DNA of 36,191 bases, from the NCBI GenBank assembly GCA_009788065.1, contig WQSF01000016.1, positions 1 through 36,191 of the forward strand, read 5' to 3'. Origin of the DNA: Treponema sp. (lineage in GTDB: Bacteria > Spirochaetota > Spirochaetia > Treponematales > Breznakiellaceae). The translations under genes were made by a program, and so were the position numbers. The notes under the pieces are model-generated. The model saw only the letters and a list, made by a program, of their open reading frames with translations. It was not told where the DNA came from and did no database searches. Below are positions 2,818-33,455 of the stretch, in pieces; within the stretch, counting starts at the first letter, position 1, and each line of letters starts with the position of its first letter.

Positions 2818-4014
2818 TTAATTTGCAAGTAATCCCGCAATCGCAGGAAACGAAATAAAGTTGCCAATCATACCGCCAAAACTGGAAAGAAAAAATACGA
2901 GCAACGCTTTTGTTATCCTGTTACGGTAAATGCCTTTTAGGCTTGTCGCGTCTTCTGTAAGGTCTTGAACATCAGAAACGCGCGGCTTTCTAAAATAAAT
3001 TTGAACAATACCGGAAAATAATCCAACACCGATAAACGGGTTTAAAGTCGCTAACGGAGCGCCCAGAAATGAAACAAGAATCGCAAGCGGGTGTGCAAGA
3101 GCGGCAAGAGAGCCGACCGCTGCGAGAGAACCGTTCCACAATACCCATCTGAGAATCATTTCAAAACCGACATCCGCTCCTTTACCGACAAATCCAACCG
3201 CAATTAAAGCTACAATCGCAATGGGTATAATCAAGCCTGCTGCTTTGGAAAGAAAACCCGGTTTTGGAATTTGATCCAGCTCAGTCACATCCGCAGTCAC
3301 TTCGCCAGCGGCGAGTTTTTCCAAATAGGAAACCATTCCCTTCATGTGGCCGGCTCCGACGACAGCGGTTATTTTTTTCGGCGAGCTGTCTTCGGGAGGT
3401 GTGGATGTCCAAATCTTCGAAGCAAGATAGCGGTCACGTTCGTCTATTAAAACCGTTTTTACAGCAGGCAGATATTCCGCAAGCTCTCCCATCATGCCGT
3501 CAAGTTCATTTTTATCTTTTAAATTTTCTATTTCCTGTTCATTTAATTTTTCTTTAGAAAAAGCGGACGCTAAAAGAGACGCAAGTAATTTGCACTTGCT
3601 CCAAAAACCGCATTTTGCCCATGCGCGCCTTAGTGTTGTTTGCACCTCACGATCGCAAAGACTGTTGGGGATTCCTGCTTCTTTTGCGGTTTCAACAGCC
3701 ATTTTCATTTCTTCGCCGGGTTTAACGCCCAACTCATTTCCAAGACGGCGCTGAAAGCTTGCTAAAACCAAATTTGCGATTAATAAGAATCCTTTTCCTT
3801 CTTTAAAAACTTTCGCTAAATCCAATTTTTCCCAATTATCGGTTTGTGTGATCGAATTGTAGCGCCCCTGATCCAGTTCTACGCAGACCATATCAGGTTT
3901 ATCTTCGCAGATAATGCTGCGCACTTCTTCAATGCTTTCGCGAGATACGTGCGCTGTTCCGATCAATTTAAATTCTCTTCCGTTCAGAGTAATTGTTGTT
4001 GTGTTGCTGTTCAT
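2818..4014 (-). CDS. TraB/PrgY family membrane protein
   Basis: LIGTAHVSRESIEEVRSII...VCVELDQGRY, VVGAGHMKGM and C-terminal TM segments typical of the TraB family. Confidence 0.9.
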   Translation of the reverse strand: MNSNTTTITLNGREFKLIGTAHVSRESIEEVRSIICEDKPDMVCVELDQGRYNSITQTDNWEKLDLAKVFKEGKGFLLIANLVLASFQRRLGNELGVKPGEEMKMAVETAKEAGIPNSLCDREVQTTLRRAWAKCGFWSKCKLLASLLASAFSKEKLNEQEIENLKDKNELDGMMGELAEYLPAVKTVLIDERDRYLASKIWTSTPPEDSSPKKITAVVGAGHMKGMVSYLEKLAAGEVTADVTELDQIPKPGFLSKAAGLIIPIAIVALIAVGFVGKGADVGFEMILRWVLWNGSLAAVGSLAALAHPLAILVSFLGAPLATLNPFIGVGLFSGIVQIYFRKPRVSDVQDLTEDATSLKGIYRNRITKALLVFFLSSFGGMIGNFISFPAIAGLLAN

Positions 4015-5378
4015 TTCCCTGCCCTTACGCCAAGATTACGTTCCAAAAGTATCATTTCATTCAACTGCCATTCTATAGTGCCGGGCGCGTTTAGATCCTG
4101 AGCCATCAAATAATATCTGTCCGCAAGATTTTTATTTCCTCTTATATCATAAAATGTAGCAAGATAAAAAAGCATTTGAGATTTTTTATATACATTTTTT
4201 TCGCTTTCTACGCTAATAGTTACGCCTGAATCGCCGGAAAGATCGTGGTAAAGACGCAGCATGGAATACTCTATAGAATCTCTGGGAGCGGTGCGAAGCA
4301 CTTGCGCAAGAAATTGTTTTGGATCTGTCTGTCTCCCCGCGCGCATCCAATTTGCGGCGGCAAGCAGCGCATATGTAAATTCTTTCGGCGCTTGTTTATA
4401 CGCCTCCAAAAACGCGTCTCTCGCTAAAGCCCATTGTTTATTTCTCATTCTAAGAGCGCCTAACGCTTCGAACGCAAAATAATAATCGGGTTTTAACTTC
4501 GCAAGAGTGGTATAATCTTTTTCCGCGCCGGCGTAATCGCCGGCTTCATCTTTTAACGCCGCGCTGTAAACATACGCCATGAAAATATTAGGCTCCGACT
4601 TAATGGCGCGGTTAAAATCAGAGAGAGCGTCTTCTTTTCGATTAACTTCCATGTACAGTTCGCCGCGATCTACAAGCATCCAGTAATTGTCAGGTTCAAG
4701 GTTTATAGCCGCGGTTAAATCTTTAAGCGCGTCATTGTTGTAACCGGCTCCCTTGTAAAGTCTTGCCCTTTCATGAAGCGGCCTTGCCCAATCGGGATAT
4801 AAAGAAACGGCGCGGTTTAAAAGCCTTTCGGCGTTTCTTGCCTCTCTTGTATAACGGTACACGGTCGCACGGCTTACAAGCGCTTCGCCGTTTTCGCTGT
4901 CGGCAGCAAGCGCTCTGTCAAAATAAGTCGCCGCAGAACGCAGATTTTGATTTCTAAGATTGATGTTACCCAAATCAATTAACGCTCTCACATGGTTTGC
5001 GTCTATCTTGATAATTCTGTCTAAAAAACCCCGTCTCTCTTTGTCCTTGCCCTCAATCGCGGCAGCATCCGCTAGCGTCATCAGAGCGTCTGTATTATTA
5101 CTGTCAGAAGCGATAATGGCGTTCGCGATACGCTTTGCGTCAGCAGTCTTGCCTGCCGAGTTGTAAATGGAAGCCTGCATTATCCTGATTTCGATTTTTT
5201 CCGCTTCTTCTTTGGGCAGTTTATTAAATAATTCCAGAGCGGACGTATAATCCCTGCGCGCAAGATGAGCCGCAACTTCGGTCAAAATAGTCTGAGAGCC
5301 ATCCTGAGCAAAAATCGCAGAGGAGGAGGAAAAAATCAACAACAGCGTTAAAACGCTTCCAATGAGTTTAATTTTCAT
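4011..5378 (-). CDS. Exported TPR-repeat protein
   Basis: Signal-peptide-like start MKIKLIGSVLTLLLIFSSSSAIFAQDG (ATG at 5378 preferred over the longer ORF) followed by multiple TPRs. The stop overlaps the TraB start. Confidence 0.85.
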   Translation of the reverse strand: MKIKLIGSVLTLLLIFSSSSAIFAQDGSQTILTEVAAHLARRDYTSALELFNKLPKEEAEKIEIRIMQASIYNSAGKTADAKRIANAIIASDSNNTDALMTLADAAAIEGKDKERRGFLDRIIKIDANHVRALIDLGNINLRNQNLRSAATYFDRALAADSENGEALVSRATVYRYTREARNAERLLNRAVSLYPDWARPLHERARLYKGAGYNNDALKDLTAAINLEPDNYWMLVDRGELYMEVNRKEDALSDFNRAIKSEPNIFMAYVYSAALKDEAGDYAGAEKDYTTLAKLKPDYYFAFEALGALRMRNKQWALARDAFLEAYKQAPKEFTYALLAAANWMRAGRQTDPKQFLAQVLRTAPRDSIEYSMLRLYHDLSGDSGVTISVESEKNVYKKSQMLFYLATFYDIRGNKNLADRYYLMAQDLNAPGTIEWQLNEMILLERNLGVRAGK

Positions 5379-5470: not shown

Positions 5471-7222
5471 ATGAAAAAACCTTTAGCTTCACGAATAATA
5501 GGACTAGCCGCTCTGTATTTTGCGGTGTTTTGCTTCGTTGTAATTCTTCAGTTCTCCAATATGGGCAATTTTTCTGTTTCACCGGGTTCGATGAATATAA
5601 AAGGCCGCTATCTATCCGAAGAATCGAAGCAAATTACAGGCGGCGTAAAGATTTTTTATGGCGGACTTGAGTTTAGCCTTAAAGAAGAACGCGGAAAAGG
5701 ATTGACGCTGACGGGAGCCAACAATGTCAATATACCGGTTAATCCCGAGTTAATGTTAATTACCGATAACAGCGCGCGCTTCGTCCTTCCCGGCGGAACC
5801 GAACTTACATTCAATTCCATCGAGTCTGCAAGGGGGCAGGAACTTCAAATTGCCGCGGAATTTGCCTCAGATATTTCGGATATTATCATACCGATTCTCC
5901 CGCGCCGTTCATCGCTTGTAAGGGATTCAGGCCAGCTTGGCATTTTATACTCAGGTTCAAGATATGTATTCAGCAGTTTAGGGAAAGAACTTGAAAGCGG
6001 ACAGCTTACACTTTCCAGAGATAATACATTTATCGCATATCGATCCAGAGGCAAGCAAAGAGCGTTTGATCCTGCGGATTATGTAATTTCCTCTGTCTCG
6101 AATTATGCGAATATCCTTAAAACATGGCAGGATTCAAATTATGTTCAATGGAATCAAAACGCGTATAACTTATCATCCGAGGATGACATTATCGCTTACG
6201 GTTCCCAGTCTCTCGCGCGGGGAAACTACCTTACGGCATCAACGGCAATTTTAGACAACTTTATAAACCATCCCGCGGAGACATACAGATCGTCTGTATT
6301 TTCCGGCGGTATGATAAACGCGCACGCCGTTTTTGCCGCCGCAGAGAATGAAAAAACAAATCTAATAAACAGGCTGATAAGAGAAAGGTCTTTGAATATT
6401 TTTAAAGAAGAACATATCCTCGATTTCCTCTTAACAAGAAGTAGCGTCGTTCAGGCAAACGATATTATCGCAATGGTGCATAACGCGTCTTCTGAAATGC
6501 TTACCGCCGATCACTGCGCCGGTCTTCTGGAATTTTATTTCGATATAAGACGCTGGCGCCCCGAATTAAATAATCCAATCGAACATTTATCGGAACAAAT
6601 TCTTACGCTTATTTCTGAGAATTTAAACAGAGACGCGGAAAATGACGCTGTCTATGCGTCAAACCCCGAAAGCAGTAATTCCGAATACAGCATGAGGCTT
6701 GGAAAAGCGCTTGTTTACTGGGCGGATGCGACGCATAACGAAGACTGGTTTGGAATCGGAAGATCGCTGATCTTATCGGCTATTTCAAGCGGAAACGCCG
6801 GAAGGCTTCATAACATTCTTAAACCTGTTGATTATTATCCAAGAGCGGCATGGCTTACAGATTCGGGGCATTGGGCATGGACAATATCGCAGTCACTAAG
6901 GGCGTATTTCAGCGCGGACGGAAATTTTAATATTTCTGTTGTATTCTTTCCAAACATGGCGCATCACATGATTATCCGCGGAATCCGCCCGTTTCTTAGA
7001 ATTCAAATTCACGGAATGGACTGGAGATCGGACAGCCAGTTTGAACGTTATGACTCATCCGGCTGGGTGTATTATCCTGAAGAACAAATACTTGTTATAA
7101 AACTAAGGCATCGTACAACAACAGAAAATATCAGAATAATTTACAGAGCGGAACCGACTCCTGCTCCCGCTCCCGCAGCGGCCGGTGAAGCAGCGCCTGA
7201 ACCAGGAGAGGATATTGAATAG
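5471..7222 (+). CDS. Conserved hypothetical exported/membrane-anchored protein
   Basis: 583-aa ORF with N-terminal TM/signal segment and A/P/E-rich C-terminus; no family recognised with confidence. Confidence 0.75.
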   Translation: MKKPLASRIIGLAALYFAVFCFVVILQFSNMGNFSVSPGSMNIKGRYLSEESKQITGGVKIFYGGLEFSLKEERGKGLTLTGANNVNIPVNPELMLITDNSARFVLPGGTELTFNSIESARGQELQIAAEFASDISDIIIPILPRRSSLVRDSGQLGILYSGSRYVFSSLGKELESGQLTLSRDNTFIAYRSRGKQRAFDPADYVISSVSNYANILKTWQDSNYVQWNQNAYNLSSEDDIIAYGSQSLARGNYLTASTAILDNFINHPAETYRSSVFSGGMINAHAVFAAAENEKTNLINRLIRERSLNIFKEEHILDFLLTRSSVVQANDIIAMVHNASSEMLTADHCAGLLEFYFDIRRWRPELNNPIEHLSEQILTLISENLNRDAENDAVYASNPESSNSEYSMRLGKALVYWADATHNEDWFGIGRSLILSAISSGNAGRLHNILKPVDYYPRAAWLTDSGHWAWTISQSLRAYFSADGNFNISVVFFPNMAHHMIIRGIRPFLRIQIHGMDWRSDSQFERYDSSGWVYYPEEQILVIKLRHRTTTENIRIIYRAEPTPAPAPAAAGEAAPEPGEDIE

Positions 7223-25331: not shown

Positions 25332-26441
25332 TTATTCAACGTCAGCCATTTTTAAAGTAAGCAATAAGGGTAAATGATCGCTGATCCCCATTCCTGTTTT
25401 TGTATTGTAAGGAACCGGGATGCCGTTAGCGTTAGTAAACGGCTCAAAATTGATGACGGCGATTTTTTCATATTCCAATCCCGATCCGTTAAAAAATTGT
25501 TTGGAAATTAAAAAATGATCGATTGTTTCCCAGCCGTATTGATAATAATATGAGCCGTTTTCAAGATCGCGAAACCACGGCGAATACAGCATAATGGTTT
25601 CTTTTTGGAAATGCGCAGGTTCAAAATTCCGGTTCCCGCTTATAACAAAATAATCCTTCTGCGTTCCGTTTGTGATCGTCGCGCAGTACGGATCATCGGG
25701 AACCAAAGCGCAAATTTTATCGGCGCCCTGCCTGTAAAATTCATTGTGGTTTTCATTTAAATCGCCTGCGATAATAACCCCTGTATCAGGCTCGCTCTGC
25801 GAAAGTTCGCGAATACGCCGTAAAATAATTCTGGCGGAAGATCTACGAACATTTTCAGTCGCCTCATCGCCGCCGATTTTCGATTTCCAGTGACAGACAA
25901 AAATAATAAATTCATTGTTATCTGCTTGAACTCTCGCTTCAAGAACAGGACGCGGCGTAGTCTCGCCGTCGATAGTGATGGAATGCGCGAATGCTTCGGT
26001 TAGCGGATAACGGCTTAAAATCCCAAGCCCGATCGCCGATCCCGGATTATTCGCAAAATGACTGTACGAATACCCAGCCGGCAGTTCTTCCGCAAGGTCT
26101 TCCAAAATCTGAAAAGATTCAATTTCCTGAAGCAGGATAATATCCGGCTTTGGCGAAATTTTTTCTACAGCGTCACAGATAGTATTTACCCTGCCCATGT
26201 ATTTTTCCGAAGACCACCCTGCCGATTGCAGAAACTCGTCATATTCAAAACCGTCATCCTTGCCGTCGAACAGGTTATGAATATTCCATGTCATCAAGGT
26301 AATACCGGGCGTTGAAATATCCCCGGATGATTCCTGTTCCGGCGAACAACCGGATAAAGCCGCCGCGCACGCGAAAACCAGCCCCGCCAAAGCAAACCCT
26401 GTCAATGCCGGAAGCAGAAAAAGATAAAGAAATTTTTTCAT
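25332..26441 (-). CDS. Endonuclease/exonuclease/phosphatase family lipoprotein
   Basis: LMTWNIHNLFDGKDDGF, ILLQEIES, VIIAGDLNENHNEF, ISDHLPLLLTL motifs; lipobox AALSGC; ATG at 26441 preferred. Confidence 0.9.
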   Translation of the reverse strand: MKKFLYLFLLPALTGFALAGLVFACAAALSGCSPEQESSGDISTPGITLMTWNIHNLFDGKDDGFEYDEFLQSAGWSSEKYMGRVNTICDAVEKISPKPDIILLQEIESFQILEDLAEELPAGYSYSHFANNPGSAIGLGILSRYPLTEAFAHSITIDGETTPRPVLEARVQADNNEFIIFVCHWKSKIGGDEATENVRRSSARIILRRIRELSQSEPDTGVIIAGDLNENHNEFYRQGADKICALVPDDPYCATITNGTQKDYFVISGNRNFEPAHFQKETIMLYSPWFRDLENGSYYYQYGWETIDHFLISKQFFNGSGLEYEKIAVINFEPFTNANGIPVPYNTKTGMGISDHLPLLLTLKMADVE

Positions 26442-26517
26442 AACAACCTCCATAAATTTGTTTATATATATATGGCGCGGACTCTGCAAAAAGCTTGCCC
26501 GAAAATGAAAAAAATCA

Positions 26518-26654
26518 GGTGACTGACACCTTTTGTTTGTTTTTATGACATTTTAGAAAATTTTTATGGGTGACTGACACCTTTGGGTAGTTATTATGCG
26601 GTTTTGGGTTTTATTAAGAGGTGACTGACACCGAAGCAAATGGTGTCAGTCACC
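26518..26654. repeat. 51-bp-periodic array of a 13-mer GGTGACTGACACC, last copy inverted
   Basis: Identical copies at 26518-26530, 26569-26581 and 26620-26632, with an exact inverted copy GGTGTCAGTCACC at 26642-26654; two spacers of exactly 38 nt with diverged sequence. Confidence 0.9.
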
Positions 26655-26705
26655 AAATGGCGCTTTTAAAACGCCTTAGAGATTGTTAAAAGACGACTAA
26701 CACTA

Positions 26706-26921
26706 TTAGCAATTGCACTTGTCTCCGTCTTTGGCACTTGTACTAAAACAACTATCTACAATTCCCAACCTATTACTGCACCAACTGCTAGACGGAAGAG
26801 AATGTGAATTATACTCACATTTACCATCACCAGGACAGTTCGGATTAGCACAACTTATCAGTATCATGCCACCCACCAGAATTGCAGCTACAAGAGCTAC
26901 CATGAAAAATTTGTTCTTCAT
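26706..26921 (-). CDS. Small Cys-rich lipoprotein
   Basis: MKNKFFMVALVAAILVGGMILISCANPNCPGDGKCEYNSHS...CSNRLGIVDSCFSTSAKDGDKCNC; lipobox LISC; AGGAG upstream. Confidence 0.7.
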   Translation of the reverse strand: MKNKFFMVALVAAILVGGMILISCANPNCPGDGKCEYNSHSLPSSSWCSNRLGIVDSCFSTSAKDGDKCNC

Positions 26922-26972
26922 AAAGAACTCCTTTTTGCGGTTCAGAAAAATCCAATCCCGCCAATTGTATAC

Positions 26973-26989
26973 ATACTCCAACGGAGTAT
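26973..26989. promoter_or_regulatory. Inverted repeat upstream of the small lipoprotein gene
   Basis: ATACTCC-AAC-GGAGTAT perfect 7-bp arms; could be an operator or part of the prophage junction. Confidence 0.4.
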
Positions 26990-27150
26990 AACAAATGACC
27001 GTTTATATTGGCTCTGGATTTCCCTATATTTATTGACAAAAATACGGTTTAATGGCACTATTTAAGTGCGAATTACTGTTTAATTTAAACGGTCGTTTTT
27101 GTTTTGCGTGTCAATAGTTGTATTTTATTAAGTATTTTTGTTATTAATCT

Positions 27151-27183
27151 AAAATCCCCTAATATATTGTATTAGGGGATTTT
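27151..27183. terminator. Strong bidirectional terminator-like hairpin
   Basis: AAAATCCCCTAATA-TATTG-TATTAGGGGATTTT, perfect 14-bp stem. Confidence 0.8.
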
Positions 27184-27410
27184 ACCTATATATTTCTCTG
27201 TAATCGTTTTATAGTGTTTTTGTATGTTATTTGTCGTCTTAATTATATTTGTTTTACTCGTTTATTTGTGTTTAAAATTTTTTAAGTTTTTTTTGTTTTT
27301 TGTTTTGTTGGTTGTGTTTTCTGTTTTTTTATATGTTTATGTTTTCTAATATTTTTTACGGTCGTATTTTTTTAATTTGTTATATGCTTAACATTTGTTT
27401 AGCGGTTTTT

Positions 27411-27556
27411 CGAATTTCCGCGCGGTTCTGCATCCGCGCGGATCGCAATTCGATTTTTTAACAATTTTTCCGCGCAGGGAAATTGTCCACGGCCGTTTTA
27501 CTAGCCTTATGCCTTTACTTGATCTGCATAAGGCTAGATGACACCGTGTAGGTGTC
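27411..27556. other. Cluster of four hairpins downstream of the VP3-like gene (candidate phage ori/packaging/termination region)
   Basis: CGAATT-TCCGCGCGG-8nt-CCGCGCGGA-TCGC-AATTCG (27411-27452); ACAATTTTTCC..GGGAAATTGT (27461-27486); CTAGCCTTATGC-13nt-GCATAAGGCTAG perfect 12 bp (27501-27537); GACACC-GTGTA-GGTGTC (27540-27556). Confidence 0.75.
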
Positions 27557-27557
27557 T

Positions 27558-27977
27558 CTATTCGCCTCCTGAAGGCGTTTTTTTTGCTGTTTTCTTTGAC
27601 GATATTTCGTCTTTTATGCCTTCTTCGGTTTCGATGTTTTTTTTGAGTCTTTTTATTCGTTCCTCCTCCGATGTTTTTGTTGAATTTATTTCTTCGGCTC
27701 TTTGTTTGTAGTGCTGTTTTAGAATGTCGGTGTGTCTTTTGTAGTCGCTGAAGTCCGTGCCTTTGTCGCGTAACGGATTGTACATAAAATCATCTTCGTT
27801 TCCTACGCCTTTGCCGTCATAGTTTTCAATTCTTTGTTCAAGAAGTTTTGCTCCGGCGTTGATGAAGTCTCTGATCTTTTGCTCTTTGTTGATGTATCCT
27901 AGTACGCGCGTTCTTGATTCGGAATTGTTGACTTCTTTTATTCGGGATATATTCCGAGTTCCGTATGTAACGCTCAT
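27558..27977 (-). CDS. Candidate internal scaffolding protein (VP3-like) of the microvirus
   Basis: 139-aa charged helical protein (YINKEQKIRDFINAGAKLLEQRIENYD...), ATGA overlap with the J-like gene; assigned mainly by size and position. Confidence 0.6.
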   Translation of the reverse strand: MSVTYGTRNISRIKEVNNSESRTRVLGYINKEQKIRDFINAGAKLLEQRIENYDGKGVGNEDDFMYNPLRDKGTDFSDYKRHTDILKQHYKQRAEEINSTKTSEEERIKRLKKNIETEEGIKDEISSKKTAKKTPSGGE

Positions 27978-28057
27978 AATCTGATACCCCCTCTTTTTGA
28001 TCCGTAGTTTTTAATGTTTACGGTTTTCTTTTTCGGCGGCTTTCTTACTTTACCCAT
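27974..28057 (-). CDS. 27-aa basic DNA-binding (J/VP8-like) protein, not in ORF track
   Basis: Reading frame MGKVRKPPKKKTVNIKNYGSKRGGIRL*, preceded by AAAAGGAGACCACT; stop overlaps the start of the next gene. Confidence 0.8.
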   Translation of the reverse strand: MGKVRKPPKKKTVNIKNYGSKRGGIRL

Positions 28058-28069
28058 AGTGGTCTCCTT

Positions 28070-29764
28070 TTAATGGTGGTCCAATAGACCCGGCTCTGCT
28101 ATTTCCGGCAGGCAGCGAACTGCGTAGAATGTATGCGAAACGTCGCATAACAATCCCGGTTCGTTTTGTACAAAGAATATTCTTGTAAGGTATAACGGAT
28201 TAACGTGTATGAAGTCCGCATTTAACTGCGGCGCGTTGTCGAATATCCTTCCCAAATGCCAATAATTCAATGTGTCCCTGAAAGCTCCGCATACTTCGCT
28301 GTTTTGCGTTCTTAGTTCGTCATATACTCCTTGAAAGCCGAATATTTCTTCATCAGTGCTGTCATTGGCTATGTATATCTCTCCTTGGAGTATTTCCTGT
28401 TCTGACAAGTTTACGAATTCTGGAACAAGGAAATCGTATCGAGTTTTGCGTAACCATTGTCTGTTGATTCCCTGCTGGTAAGAAGGTTTTGGCATAACGC
28501 TTTGAAGCCCGATAATATAACCGTGTTCTTTGGCGTGGTATGTTCCTACATGGTTCTCTGTGTAGCTTATACCGTGACCCGACATATTGCCCTGATCGGT
28601 TGTGTCGCTCTGGCTTGTTTGAAGAACTTCAGATATAACAAGCGGCGTTTTTGTTCCTCCGATGTATTCAGGTCTCTGGAGTGAAGCGTCTCCCATATGG
28701 ACACCGAAATGCGCCAATATGAATTCAGGCAGTCTCGCTCCGGCTCTCGCGTTTCGTTCGAGGAATTTTTGAAGCTGTACTATCTGCCTTAGATCGCTGA
28801 CATCGATACTGGTGCCTGATAATTTTCCTTCAGAGTTGATGACGTTGTTGTTAAGTGCTTGTGCGAGGTATTGGTTGTTACCTGTAACTAATGATATATA
28901 TCCGGGTTCTGTTGTAGTATTTATAGTTACTGATCCTCCTCCGATTTTATAAGGTGATGTAGTAGACATACCAAGTGCAACAGGAGTTGTAGAATTGGAA
29001 GTGATAAGCGCGTTGTCGAATATTGCGTTAAGCACTCCGCTGATGTTGACTGGTATTGCCGGCGCTAGACCTCTCTGCTGGAATGGTAGAGATGATGTGA
29101 AGTAGTCTTTTCTCCATGAACGTAGTAGGATATTTTCGTTCCTCCATGTTACAGGGTCTTCAAGTGTTTCGTCTCTGTAGTATTCGTTGTATATGAAGTT
29201 GTAAGCGCGTCTTAGAAAGTCTACAGGCGTTAAAGGTGAAGCCCATTGTACGCCGTCCGGAAGGACCGGAAGTCCGAGATAATCCCATAGCGAATATTTA
29301 TACGGCGCTGGAACGTTTTGCGATATTCTGTCTGTAGGTCTTACGAAGTTTTTACCGCTGGGTACCCATCGAGGCAGAGTTTGGTTGTCCATGCCGTCAA
29401 ATCCGCCTGTTATGAATAACTGCCATGAGAATCTGTTTGCCGGAGGTGCGTTGTCACCTAACATTAAAGGATCGCCGTAAGGGTTTCCCCCTCCGGGATT
29501 TGCGTTCATGTCGTCTAATATTCTGGCAGGCACAAAGAAGTAATGAGTATCTATACTGCACTCGTGCATGACCGGCGCTACTAGAGGCGTGCATCTGCAT
29601 AGTGTTTCGTTTGATATGTGCCAATAGTCGTTAGGAGCTACCTCCTGAACGAAAATAGGTATCAATTCGCCGAAATTGCAGTCAAATTTTTTTTCCTTGT
29701 ACCAGTCGAATCTTGTTTTATGCGGATCGAGTCCCGCGACGTTTTGAAATGCTATTCCACCCAT
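28070..29764 (-). CDS. Microvirus major capsid protein VP1
   Basis: FDWYKEKKFDCNFGELIPIFVQEVAPNDYWHISNETLCRCTPLVAPVMHECSIDTHYFFVPARILDD..., QPEYIGG-like RPEYIGGTKTPLVISEVLQTS, C-terminal PGLLDH; strong gokushovirus MCP signature. Confidence 0.97.
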   Translation of the reverse strand: MGGIAFQNVAGLDPHKTRFDWYKEKKFDCNFGELIPIFVQEVAPNDYWHISNETLCRCTPLVAPVMHECSIDTHYFFVPARILDDMNANPGGGNPYGDPLMLGDNAPPANRFSWQLFITGGFDGMDNQTLPRWVPSGKNFVRPTDRISQNVPAPYKYSLWDYLGLPVLPDGVQWASPLTPVDFLRRAYNFIYNEYYRDETLEDPVTWRNENILLRSWRKDYFTSSLPFQQRGLAPAIPVNISGVLNAIFDNALITSNSTTPVALGMSTTSPYKIGGGSVTINTTTEPGYISLVTGNNQYLAQALNNNVINSEGKLSGTSIDVSDLRQIVQLQKFLERNARAGARLPEFILAHFGVHMGDASLQRPEYIGGTKTPLVISEVLQTSQSDTTDQGNMSGHGISYTENHVGTYHAKEHGYIIGLQSVMPKPSYQQGINRQWLRKTRYDFLVPEFVNLSEQEILQGEIYIANDSTDEEIFGFQGVYDELRTQNSEVCGAFRDTLNYWHLGRIFDNAPQLNADFIHVNPLYLTRIFFVQNEPGLLCDVSHTFYAVRCLPEIAEPGLLDHH

Positions 29765-30040
29765 TTATGACTCCTTTGCATGGCTAAGTATTTCGTCCCA
29801 TGCGGTTTGACCGTTAAACACCGCGGTATGCGGATGATTTTCTGAGAAGTCTCTTAAATCTTCTTCGCTGTAAGAATTTAATTTAACCAAAACTGTATTT
29901 TTTAGGTCCGCGCTCGGCGATTCTGTTTTGATTTTTGTTATATAGCTGTAGAATGTTCTTAAAGCTTCTTTTTGGTTTTTAACTTCGAAAACTGATGTTC
30001 TTTTGTCGATTTCTTCGTCTAATATGAAGTATATTTCCAT
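29765..30040 (-). CDS. Microvirus small non-structural protein (VP5-like)
   Basis: MEIYFILDEEIDKRTSVFEVKNQKEALRTFYSYI...; ATG at 30040 with GGAG RBS preferred; position between rep and capsid genes. Confidence 0.6.
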   Translation of the reverse strand: MEIYFILDEEIDKRTSVFEVKNQKEALRTFYSYITKIKTESPSADLKNTVLVKLNSYSEEDLRDFSENHPHTAVFNGQTAWDEILSHAKES

Positions 30041-30050
30041 ATTTCGCTCC

Positions 30051-30869
30051 TTATAATTTTTGTCTGTTATGCGACAATTTTTGGTCTTTACCGTTGAAAT
30101 TTTCAACGTACTGGTCTTGGTATTCTTGTTTATATTTCTGTTTCTCGCTCCTCCCGTGCAAGTGTCTTACTTTATCTGCCATAGCGTGCGCCATCGGCAG
30201 TTCGTTTTGAAGTCCGTATTTGTCTATTATGAATTTAGGTATGTTTACTTTAGTTCCTGACTGCAGCATTATGAATCCGTTTTTTATGTGCTGGTCTATG
30301 TCTTTTAATAAAGCCTGTTCTCCAAAATTTTGGCTTGAGTGCTGGAAAGGAGGAAGTTTTTCGCCGTAATATTCCGGCGCTTTTTTGTCCATTATGTATG
30401 ATGTGACGTAACGTATTGAAGCGTGTGTGACTGATCCAATATGTATATTTCCTAAAGCCCAAGTGTCCTGTATAACTTTGGCGTTTTCTGCGCATGATTT
30501 GATTCCAACGCAGATGATATGGTAGTGAGGTCTTGATGTGTTTTCTCCGTATTCGCCGCATTCGTAGTATTTGTAAGTAAACCCTTTCTTTCTCAAACGT
30601 TTGTGGAATAATGTAAGATCGCGCGGATTGAGTGTGCTGTGCGCAATGCTGTTCTGTGATCCACGGGAAGTGTATGGTAAGTTTTCGTCCGTATATGTTA
30701 ATGTTAAAAATGTACTGTCTGCGTGTGTGTCTGCGATTTCGCATAATATCCTCATGGTCCATAAACTGATTTTGTTTATACGGCATGATTTGCATCTCAT
30801 ACAAGGTACCTCCATAAATTTTCCAGTTGTATTTGGTTTTGGTATTTTGAAAGGCGTTAAACATTTCAT
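30051..30869 (-). CDS. Microvirus replication initiator VP4 (HUH-type endonuclease)
   Basis: PCMRCKSCR motif, FLTLTYTDENLP, CGEYGENTSRPHYHII (HUH motif), IRYVTSYIMDKK (candidate catalytic tyrosines). Confidence 0.95.
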   Translation of the reverse strand: MKCLTPFKIPKPNTTGKFMEVPCMRCKSCRINKISLWTMRILCEIADTHADSTFLTLTYTDENLPYTSRGSQNSIAHSTLNPRDLTLFHKRLRKKGFTYKYYECGEYGENTSRPHYHIICVGIKSCAENAKVIQDTWALGNIHIGSVTHASIRYVTSYIMDKKAPEYYGEKLPPFQHSSQNFGEQALLKDIDQHIKNGFIMLQSGTKVNIPKFIIDKYGLQNELPMAHAMADKVRHLHGRSEKQKYKQEYQDQYVENFNGKDQKLSHNRQKL

Positions 30870-31870
30870 TACCTATATGGTGCCTCTTCAGCGTTACGCG
30901 AGTTACCGCGGTAGGATGCTTCTTTTGCTTGTCTTTCTTTTTTTTTGGCTTCTTCTTTTTCTCTTTTAATTGCGGATTTTACTTTTTGTTCTGGAAGTTG
31001 TGTAATTTCTTTAACTATTTTGTTAAATATACTGTTAGATGATGTTATTGGGTTTATTCCTGTTGCGTCTTGAAATATGTTTGAGATGTCTTGAATCATT
31101 TTTCCGGTACCGCCGGTTCTTGGATTGTCTTGAAGCATTTTTAATTCTTGTTCTACTTTTCTAGTATTTGCTCTTGTTAAATTTAGTTCTTCGATTAGAC
31201 TTTGTATTCTTTGATCTGATTCTTCTCTTTGTTTTTGTGCTGTTTCGATTTCGCTTTGTGCGGTTGGTGTTTTACCTAAAAGTCTTAATGTGTCAGCTTC
31301 AGTGTTTGCGGCTTGCGCTTCTATTAATTTAGCTTGCGCTCCTCCTAGTCTTAATTGATTTGCCATTGTGCCTATCTCGAAAGGGTTTAGCATTGATCCG
31401 TTTTGGTGTCCCTGAAGTCTAGGTGTAGGTATTCTACCGCCTGATGATGTTGTATGGCTTACAGGCATATTTCCTCCGGATATGCCGCCGCCGCCGCCGC
31501 CAAGAAATGCGGTGCCGTGAAGTCCGGCTTCCCTCATAGCTTGCATTTGAGTTGCGGGTAACGATCTTTGGTAATCTTCATCGCGGAATTGTTGTTGTCT
31601 TGCTATATCTTCGTCCCTCCATCGCTGGTTGCGCTCTAGGTCCTCTGCTCTGTCGGAGCGTTCGGTGTTGTAATTTCTCCATGCCCAGTCGTCTGCTTTT
31701 CTCGCTTCTGATTCTTCGAATGTGGAAGGCATGCCGGACATTTTTCTTCTGAAGTTGTCTGCGGTTTCATCTGTAACGTTCCAGAAGTCTTTATGGAATG
31801 GATTGTAACGATCAAATTGTGTTCCCCCTCTTTTGTGTGATACTAGTCTTTGAATTAGGAATCCAAGCAT
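30869..31870 (-). CDS. Microvirus DNA pilot protein VP2 (minor capsid)
   Basis: DEDIARQQQFRDEDYQRSLPATQMQAMREAGLHGTAFLGGGGG matches the pilot-protein pattern; Ala/Gln/Glu-rich helices; AAGGAG RBS; TAATG overlap with VP4. Confidence 0.9.
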   Translation of the reverse strand: MLGFLIQRLVSHKRGGTQFDRYNPFHKDFWNVTDETADNFRRKMSGMPSTFEESEARKADDWAWRNYNTERSDRAEDLERNQRWRDEDIARQQQFRDEDYQRSLPATQMQAMREAGLHGTAFLGGGGGGISGGNMPVSHTTSSGGRIPTPRLQGHQNGSMLNPFEIGTMANQLRLGGAQAKLIEAQAANTEADTLRLLGKTPTAQSEIETAQKQREESDQRIQSLIEELNLTRANTRKVEQELKMLQDNPRTGGTGKMIQDISNIFQDATGINPITSSNSIFNKIVKEITQLPEQKVKSAIKREKEEAKKKERQAKEASYRGNSRNAEEAPYR

Positions 31871-31939
31871 AGTTTACTCCTTGTTTTTTTTGTGCGTAGC
31901 TTTTCATTGTTGCGTTTAATATATTTATTTGAAGGTTTT

Positions 31940-32004
31940 CAACATTGTGCTAAACTCTATCCGGGGGGAGTAAACCCCCCGGACCAGAGTTTTGCACATT
32001 GTTG
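31940..32004. terminator. Long GC-cored hairpin upstream of VP2
   Basis: TCCGGGGGG-AGTAAA-CCCCCCGGA perfect 9-bp core, extended by AAACTCT/AGAGTTT and CAACATTGTGC/GCACATTGTTG (10/11). Confidence 0.8.
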
Positions 32005-32067
32005 TAAACATCTCTCCGATCTCTATATATGGTCGTATAATTATAGCAATTGTATTGCATGCCCCAC

Positions 32068-32096
32068 TTGACATTTTTTACCATTTTTTGTACTCT
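32068..32096 (+). promoter_or_regulatory. Putative sigma-70 promoter for rplM-rpsI
   Basis: TTGACA (32068-32073), 17-nt spacer, TACTCT (32091-32096). Confidence 0.6.
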
Positions 32097-32142
32097 TAAA
32101 CTCCCGTTACAATTAAAGAAAAGGTGATAAAAGGTTATCGAT

Positions 32143-32571
32143 ATGAAGACAGTATTTGAAAAACCCGCGTCGGTGGAACGAAAATGGTACGTTCTTGATG
32201 CCGACGGGAAGATTCTGGGCAGGGTCGCCGCCAAGGTCGCGTCCATCGTCCGGGGTAAAAATAAGGCAAATTTTGTGCCCCATCAAGAAATTGGGGATTT
32301 TATTGTTATTATAAACGCGGATAAAATCGCCATATCGGGCAGAAAAGCCCAGCAGAAGATGTATTACAAGCACTCAGGCTATGTCGGGGGCTTAAGCGCC
32401 AATAATTTCGAGAAAGTGATTGAAAGGCACCCGACAATGCCGCTGGAGTTGGCAATTAAAGGTATGCTTCCCAAGGGACCGCTCGGCAGGAAAATGGCGA
32501 AAAACGTAAAAATTTATGCCGGCGCCGATCATCCGCACAGCAGTCAAAAACCAGAGCCGATAGAGGCGTAA
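32143..32571 (+). CDS. rplM: 50S ribosomal protein L13
   Basis: WYVLDADGKILGRVAAKVASIVRGKNKANFVPHQEIGDFIVIINADKI. Confidence 0.98.
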   Translation: MKTVFEKPASVERKWYVLDADGKILGRVAAKVASIVRGKNKANFVPHQEIGDFIVIINADKIAISGRKAQQKMYYKHSGYVGGLSANNFEKVIERHPTMPLELAIKGMLPKGPLGRKMAKNVKIYAGADHPHSSQKPEPIEA

Positions 32572-32580
32572 GAGGAATAC

Positions 32581-32973
32581 ATGATTAAGAATCTTGGAAT
32601 AGGTACAGGAAGAAGAAAAACTTCGGTAGCGCGGGTTTATGTCCGTGACGGAAGCGGCAAGATCACCATCAATGACAAAGATATCGCCGTTTATTTCCCG
32701 ATGGGCGAGCATGTTCAAATGGTTCGCCAGCCTTTAATGGTGACAGCATGCGAAAATAAGTTTGACGTTTTAATCAACGTTTACGGCGGCGGCAGCAACG
32801 GTCAGGCGGGAGCCTGCCGTCACGGTCTTGCGAGAGCGCTCTGTCAGGTTGAGCAAGCCAATTACGCGAGCCTTCGCGCAAACGGCTACCTTACACGCGA
32901 TCCGCGCATGGTTGAACGTAAGAAATACGGCCGTCCCGGCGCCCGCAGACGCTTCCAGTTCTCCAAACGCTAG
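32581..32973 (+). CDS. rpsI: 30S ribosomal protein S9
   Basis: GTGRRKTSVARVYVRDGSGKITIN ... YLTRDPRMVERKKYGRPGARRRFQFSKR. Confidence 0.98.
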   Translation: MIKNLGIGTGRRKTSVARVYVRDGSGKITINDKDIAVYFPMGEHVQMVRQPLMVTACENKFDVLINVYGGGSNGQAGACRHGLARALCQVEQANYASLRANGYLTRDPRMVERKKYGRPGARRRFQFSKR

Positions 32974-32975
32974 TA

Positions 32976-33455
32976 TTGGAAAAAAGCGAAAACAATACAA
33001 CTACCGCTTATATACACGCAGAGAAAATCGCTCTGCGCCTGGTCGCAAGGGCGGAGCAATGTTCCCGCGGGCTCGCGCTCAAGCTGGAAAAGCGTAAATG
33101 CGATCCTGCGAGTATCAGCGAAGTAATCTCTAAACTTACAGAATTAAAATTAATTGACGACAGCCGCTTTGCGCGCCTTTGGCTTGAATCGCGGATGCGG
33201 CTGACGCGAAGCCCGCGCCGGCTGCTTTCTTCGCTCTGCGCGAAAGGCATCGAACATGAAGACGCAAAAGCCGCCATTTCGAGCGTGTTAGATGAAGAGG
33301 CGGAAGCGTCGCTTATTGTACGGTTTGTAAAAAAACACGCGCGAAAAGCAGGCGGAAGAAATAACAGCGAAGACGGCGCCCGATCCGTCAAACACTTGTT
33401 AAAAAACGAAGGTTTTTCGACAGCGGCAATTAAACAATTTCTTGGCGAAGATTAA
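32976..33455 (+). CDS. recX: Regulatory protein RecX
   Basis: ALRLVARAEQCSRGLALKLEKR...VISKLTELKLIDDSRFARLWLESRM; TTG start. Confidence 0.85.
   Translation: MEKSENNTTTAYIHAEKIALRLVARAEQCSRGLALKLEKRKCDPASISEVISKLTELKLIDDSRFARLWLESRMRLTRSPRRLLSSLCAKGIEHEDAKAAISSVLDEEAEASLIVRFVKKHARKAGGRNNSEDGARSVKHLLKNEGFSTAAIKQFLGED

Follow-up and report, generated by a model that had tools for sequence, protein, structure and literature searches.

A Treponema-type spirochaete with a structurally intact microvirus provirus at the repeat of a probably invertible lipoprotein promoter

Introduction

Microviruses are common in gut viromes, and hosts are known for only a few of them. With the Gokushovirinae (phiMH2K, SpV4, Chlamydia phages) the phage that we report here shares homologues of VP1, VP2, VP4 and J, and it differs from them in its gene order (VP1-J-VP3like-VP2-VP4-VP5) and in a VP1 that groups separately. 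A known passive route of integration for microviruses is XerCD/dif (PMC3091885, PMC7062461), and the Bacteroidetes BMVs (PMC3091885) and Enterogokushovirus EC6098 (PMC7062461) resemble our phage in being small ssDNA phages without an integrase, in their intergenic position and in their apparent dependence on host recombination. In spirochaetes, microviruses had been seen only as single MAG contigs, which were set aside as possible errors (PMC9239249). We found no report in the open-access literature that links a gokushovirus with Treponema, or that describes microvirus integration by an invertase.

The other relevant system is that of the Mpi-controlled invertible promoters of Bacteroides (PMC4747536, PMC8375218), for which the repeat ARACGTTCGTN has been published (PMC8375218). 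The locus described below has in common with them an Mpi-family invertase, AAACG-NN-CGT-like repeats and surface lipoprotein genes; it differs in belonging to a spirochaete, in that inversion is inferred from paralogues, and in the presence of a phage in the repeat of one copy. The window (the whole stretch of DNA analysed, 36,191 nucleotides) is an entire contig of the host genome, G000, a MAG of 98 contigs that is 70% complete.

Results

As judged from sequence alone, our analysis demonstrates that positions 27091-32030 hold the provirus of a microvirus in a Treponema-type spirochaete. This provirus is structurally intact and has a full set of capsid, pilot, Rep and J genes and a conserved origin-like hairpin. 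Its parts are as follows.

27091-32030, minus strand: microvirus provirus, 4,940 bp (gene content, size range of circular relatives, junction analysis)
27150-27184, no strand assigned: perfect 15-bp hairpin, possible terminator
27501-27545, minus strand: conserved hairpin GGTGTCATCTAGCCTTATGCAGATCAAG..GCATAAGGCTAG, 3' of the VP3-like gene, near-invariant in 11 circular relatives
27558-27977, minus strand: VP3-like protein, 139 aa (same-position homologues in 10 relatives, lowest E 1e-18)
27974-28057, minus strand: J-like basic DNA-binding peptide, 27 aa (conserved in relatives)
28070-29764, minus strand: VP1 major capsid protein, 564 aa (PF02305 Phage_F E=2.9e-86; phrog_514 E=7e-136; 62% to PQ006412)
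29765-30040, minus strand: VP5-like nonstructural protein, 91 aa (weak: phrog_1670 DNA binding E=0.02; relatives E=2e-4; position)
30051-30869, minus strand: VP4 HUH replication initiator, 272 aa (PF23343; phrog_942 E=4e-61; alignment)
30869-31870, minus strand: VP2 DNA pilot protein, 333 aa (phrog_8689 E=1.2e-6; 39% to PQ006412 VP2)
31956-31991, no strand assigned: GC-rich hairpin upstream of VP2, read by eye (several relatives have one likewise)

The phage meets the criteria that we applied for Microviridae, namely a Phage_F VP1, an HUH Rep with RPHYH and a Y-containing motif 3, and a pilot protein with a J-like peptide; the Rep retains FLTLTY, RPHYHI and YVTSYIMDK in the alignment. Circular microvirus relatives of similar size exist, and the length of the provirus falls inside their range (4738-5177). 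J and the VP3-like protein keep their place in these relatives, even though a solid family match is absent, and an NCBIfam search of the phage proteins gave zero matches. No integrase is present in the gene content of the phage. The hairpin at 27501-27545 is a probable rolling-circle replication origin, a role that is inferred. A preliminary description, made from the DNA letters, had already recognised a single uninterrupted minus-strand operon with open phage genes, and this agrees with the unbroken run that we find at 27558-31870 (VP2, Rep, VP5-like, VP1, J, VP3-like, all open); its calls of VP1, VP2, VP4/Rep, J and VP3-like hold, and that of VP5-like has weaker support. It had also set the phage in the context of gokushoviruses and suggested a comparison of VP1 and VP4 with Microviridae, together with a phylogeny. 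Family matches were indeed found. The phage is, however, not a canonical gokushovirus: phiMH2K and a human gokushovirus (WZ-2015a) fall outside its clade in the VP1 tree, from which SpV4 was left out owing to stops under the standard code.

In that tree the phage forms a set of ten with rodent-gut viruses (support 100/100), and a larger clade of 16 rows (100/100) adds the two Treponema proviruses, one Spirochaetaceae and one Chitinispirillia provirus, as well as pig and human-saliva viruses. The nearest record is bajarodmic virus 303 (PQ006412; circular, rodent faeces, VP1 62%). Together with its relatives it shares with our phage the gene order, J and the origin-like hairpin; the differences are that these viruses are known only as faecal circles with no assigned bacterial host, and that PQ006412 has a dif, which our phage lacks. 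The human-saliva microvirus OR149008.1 also lies within the spirochaete-linked clade, and from this placement oral treponemes may be hosts. As separate observations, integrated-looking microviruses with dif-like flanking repeats occur in Chitinispirillia (Fibrobacterota; WQRV01000039.1) and in an Endomicrobium MAG (Elusimicrobiota; JAISRM010000123.1), and another microvirus lies in a 94-kb Spirochaetaceae contig (JAITER010000083.1) with a dif-like sequence on one side (locus position 5505).

Two congeners (G063:C41 and G034:C3) carry related microviruses at one common locus and in the same orientation, between radical-SAM and lipoprotein genes. The direct repeats on either side measure 29 bp (two mismatches) for one and 36 bp (perfect) for the other. 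The repeat holds a TTTACTAATCATAATGTATATTCTGTCTAC-like sequence which 27 of 40 congeners contain, mostly in a single copy (a backward control was found in 1), and which, on its form and single occurrence, we identify as the dif of the genus. Both congeneric phages thus satisfy the criterion of direct repeats that resemble dif at the dif locus of the genus, and fully fit the XerCD/dif-integrated microviruses. PQ006412 carries this dif at 21/21 bases, after the Rep gene (shuffled minimum 4 mismatches), so that the nearest of the circular relatives has what it needs to integrate in the spirochaete lineage; among the other circular viruses examined, the best copy has 3 mismatches. Proviruses at dif in congeners, along with dif in the nearest circular virus, indicate that the clade normally integrates via the host XerCD, and we take this comparison of sequences to establish that it infects the Treponema lineage. 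At least three microvirus proviruses are present in the genus, two at dif and that of the window elsewhere.

The window phage departs from XerCD/dif-integrated microviruses in having no dif, in that the host dif is empty, and in a junction that falls in the VP3-VP2 gap instead of the Rep-VP5 gap. Neither a 45-column profile scan nor a mismatch count detected dif in or around the phage and its junctions, which rules it out there, while the dif-like site of the host is intact, without phage, at its usual position next to the radical-SAM gene. A comparison of the two phage ends for plain direct repeats gave only AT-rich or short matches. One candidate attachment site, CAATTGTAT at 26962/32047, was rejected because host homology (upstream of the lipoprotein gene) continues to 27091.

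What does lie at the left end is a promoter element of the following composition.

26706-26924, minus strand: small host lipoprotein gene, of a paralogous family with four further matches in the host genome
26993-27009, no strand assigned: proximal inverted repeat of the invertible promoter, AATATAAACG-GT-CATTT on the minus strand
27010-27081, no strand assigned: invertible promoter segment, pointing away from the lipoprotein gene in the window and into the lipoprotein gene at two paralogous loci
27082-27098, no strand assigned: distal inverted repeat, which is the left junction (attL), AATTTAAACG-GT-CGTTT (paralogue homology ends at 27091; site comparison)

At the two paralogous loci (contigs C5 and C15 of the host genome), 26932-27009 matches on the same strand and 27027-27091 on the opposite strand, from which we infer that the segment is inverted relative to the paralogues. 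It contains a TTGACA-type promoter, read by eye and not returned by the consensus scan. The inverted repeats AAACG-GT-CGTTT and AAACG-GT-CATTT flank it, and the paralogues carry AAACG-AG. Two arms enclosing a core of two bases, with the core the same within a locus and different from one locus to another, are the arrangement expected for a serine invertase. Only one base separates AAACGGTCGT from the Mpi repeat ARACGTTCGT, and the criterion for an Mpi-type promoter, ARACGTTCGT-like inverted repeats in both orientations, is met, with the orientations seen at paralogous loci of the same genome and not at the same locus. The host encodes an Mpi-family serine invertase (G000:C17:20115; 310.7 bits against an NCBIfam cut-off of 272), which is the only resolvase-family match in the genome. 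Tyrosine recombinases were considered as the inverter and rejected, as the only ones seen in the genome resemble XerC and XerD and lie next to topA/hslV and ftsZ-like genes. We conclude that the Mpi-family invertase probably flips the lipoprotein promoter, with inversion inferred from the paralogues and the activity of the enzyme likewise inferred. Invertible promoters stand before small lipoprotein genes at three places (window 26993-27098; G000:C5 ~29309-29440; G000:C15 ~3789-3943), and all three are probably phase-variable. A GGTGACTGACACC repeat occurs in four copies, on both strands, at window 26517-26654 and also beside the paralogous lipoprotein loci. DNA similarity did not reveal the lipoprotein promoter cassette in other congeners. 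As congeners lack the cassette at the window locus, the paralogues are what the inference of the exact empty site rests on.

The other end of the phage is the right junction:

32027-32036, no strand assigned: right junction (attR), ATATGGTCGT

Host and phage have only GGTCGT (6 bp) in common at the junction. Within 26400-33000 the plus strand has this hexamer at three positions (27091, 27360 and 32031), and its complement is absent. When the left half of the host, at 27091, is joined to what follows from 32031 onward, the result is AAACGGTCGTATAATTATAGCAA, and one paralogous flank reads AAACGAGGGTATAAATTCGGCAA; in register, the rejoined site agrees with the paralogues at 11/15 and 10/15 positions (chance ~0.0008 and ~0.0014; several lengths were tried, with chance values from 0.0004 to 0.05). 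No such in-register match to the paralogues exists on the attL side, and none of the circular relatives examined has the GGTCGT core in its non-coding region. It is well supported by the sequence comparisons that the phage is located at the distal inverted repeat of the invertible lipoprotein promoter, joined over GGTCGT.

How it came to be there is less certain. A real provirus could have landed at the invertible promoter by illegitimate recombination or repair, with the GGTCGT match due to chance, and the sharing of just 6 bp, as well as the lack of dif or any recognisable attachment sequence in the phage, leaves this possible; we find it doubtful, as the left end of the host homology coincides with the recombination core, and the right flank, once rejoined, matches the paralogous flanks in the same register. 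It is unlikely that the left end is instead the GGTCGT at 27360, with 27099-27356 being host DNA and the phage ~4.67 kb. The agreement of TACGGTCGTATTTTTTTA (27357) with TATGGTCGTATAATTATA (32028) at 14/18 bases and a shorter non-coding region, nearer to that of the relatives, would fit such an end, but T-rich, phage-like composition begins already near 27000-27090, and the rejoined site would not give back a paralogue-like flank beside the repeat.

The phage lies between two anchor genes of the host.

25332-26444, minus strand: host endonuclease/exonuclease/phosphatase-family gene, left anchor (PF19580/PF03372; adjoins rplM in congeners)
32143-32571, plus strand: rplM, right anchor (PF00572)

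In 7 congeners the endonuclease/phosphatase gene is directly beside rplM (gap mostly 118-168 bp), with a TPR gene beyond and no phage; the lipoprotein gene of the window is missing there. The TTGACA box of rplM at 32068 is undisturbed by the phage, and the upstream box is conserved in congeners. As the phage splits genes that are neighbours in congeners, both of its ends are anchored at one locus. An assembly or binning chimera, in which a free microvirus circle was joined to a spirochaete contig, is thus highly improbable: the host genome is a fragmented MAG and Kirchberger 2022 (PMC9239249) doubted spirochaete microviruses for such reasons, but both phage ends lie between genes adjacent in congeners, the sequence shared at the junction is far below the usual assembly word size, and two congeners have microviruses within 48- and 82-kb contigs with conserved genes on either side.

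The preliminary description had proposed an integrated microvirus, with a spirochaete host inferred from the flank genes (endonuclease and lipoprotein on the left; rplM, rpsI and recX on the right), and would have considered itself refuted had these not been contiguous in phage-free relatives. Family matches confirm the endonuclease/phosphatase gene on the left and rplM, rpsI and recX on the right, the endonuclease/phosphatase gene and rplM are adjacent in those relatives, and two congeners are named Treponema MAGs in public records, so that the claim survives. The phage is where it was placed, with limits refined from 26991-32062 to 27091-32030, as the first 100 bp claimed are the invertible promoter of the host. 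Its position next to a ribosomal operon, to which importance had been given, is correct and looks incidental, the target being the invertible-promoter repeat.

Discussion

The explanation that we favour as a whole, and think likely to be right, is that of an intact provirus from a clade that normally uses XerCD/dif, lying in the window at an invertible-promoter repeat, with insertion by an invertase as the inferred step. Here, the Mpi-family serine invertase of the host would have acted on two sites, the host repeat and a GT-core site carried by circular phage DNA, and recombined them, which is inferred and not shown. Reversal of this step could then release the phage (no excision product, virion or reads are known), after which HUH rolling-circle replication would follow. 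Insertion by the invertase is the most economical reading of the 6-bp core and the comparison with paralogues, on which the inference rests; chance insertion is possible, and the shared core itself could be due to chance. Moreover, other recombinases may be missing from our data, since the host MAG is only 70% complete. In its strongest form, the proposal is that a microvirus hijacked an Mpi-family invertase at the repeat of a phase-variable promoter, which would give microviruses a second passive route in addition to XerCD/dif, and this in a phylum that had not until now been accepted as host. We put this forward tentatively, as something that may well turn out otherwise.

That spirochaetes carry microviruses, on the other hand, is backed by solid evidence. 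Three proviruses in one genus, along with a rodent-gut circle that carries the dif of this genus, provide a host for a clade whose viruses had been unassigned. Should the invertase route prove right, phages without an integrase would be able to draw on more than one recombinase of the host, and sites of phase variation would also be landing sites for phages.
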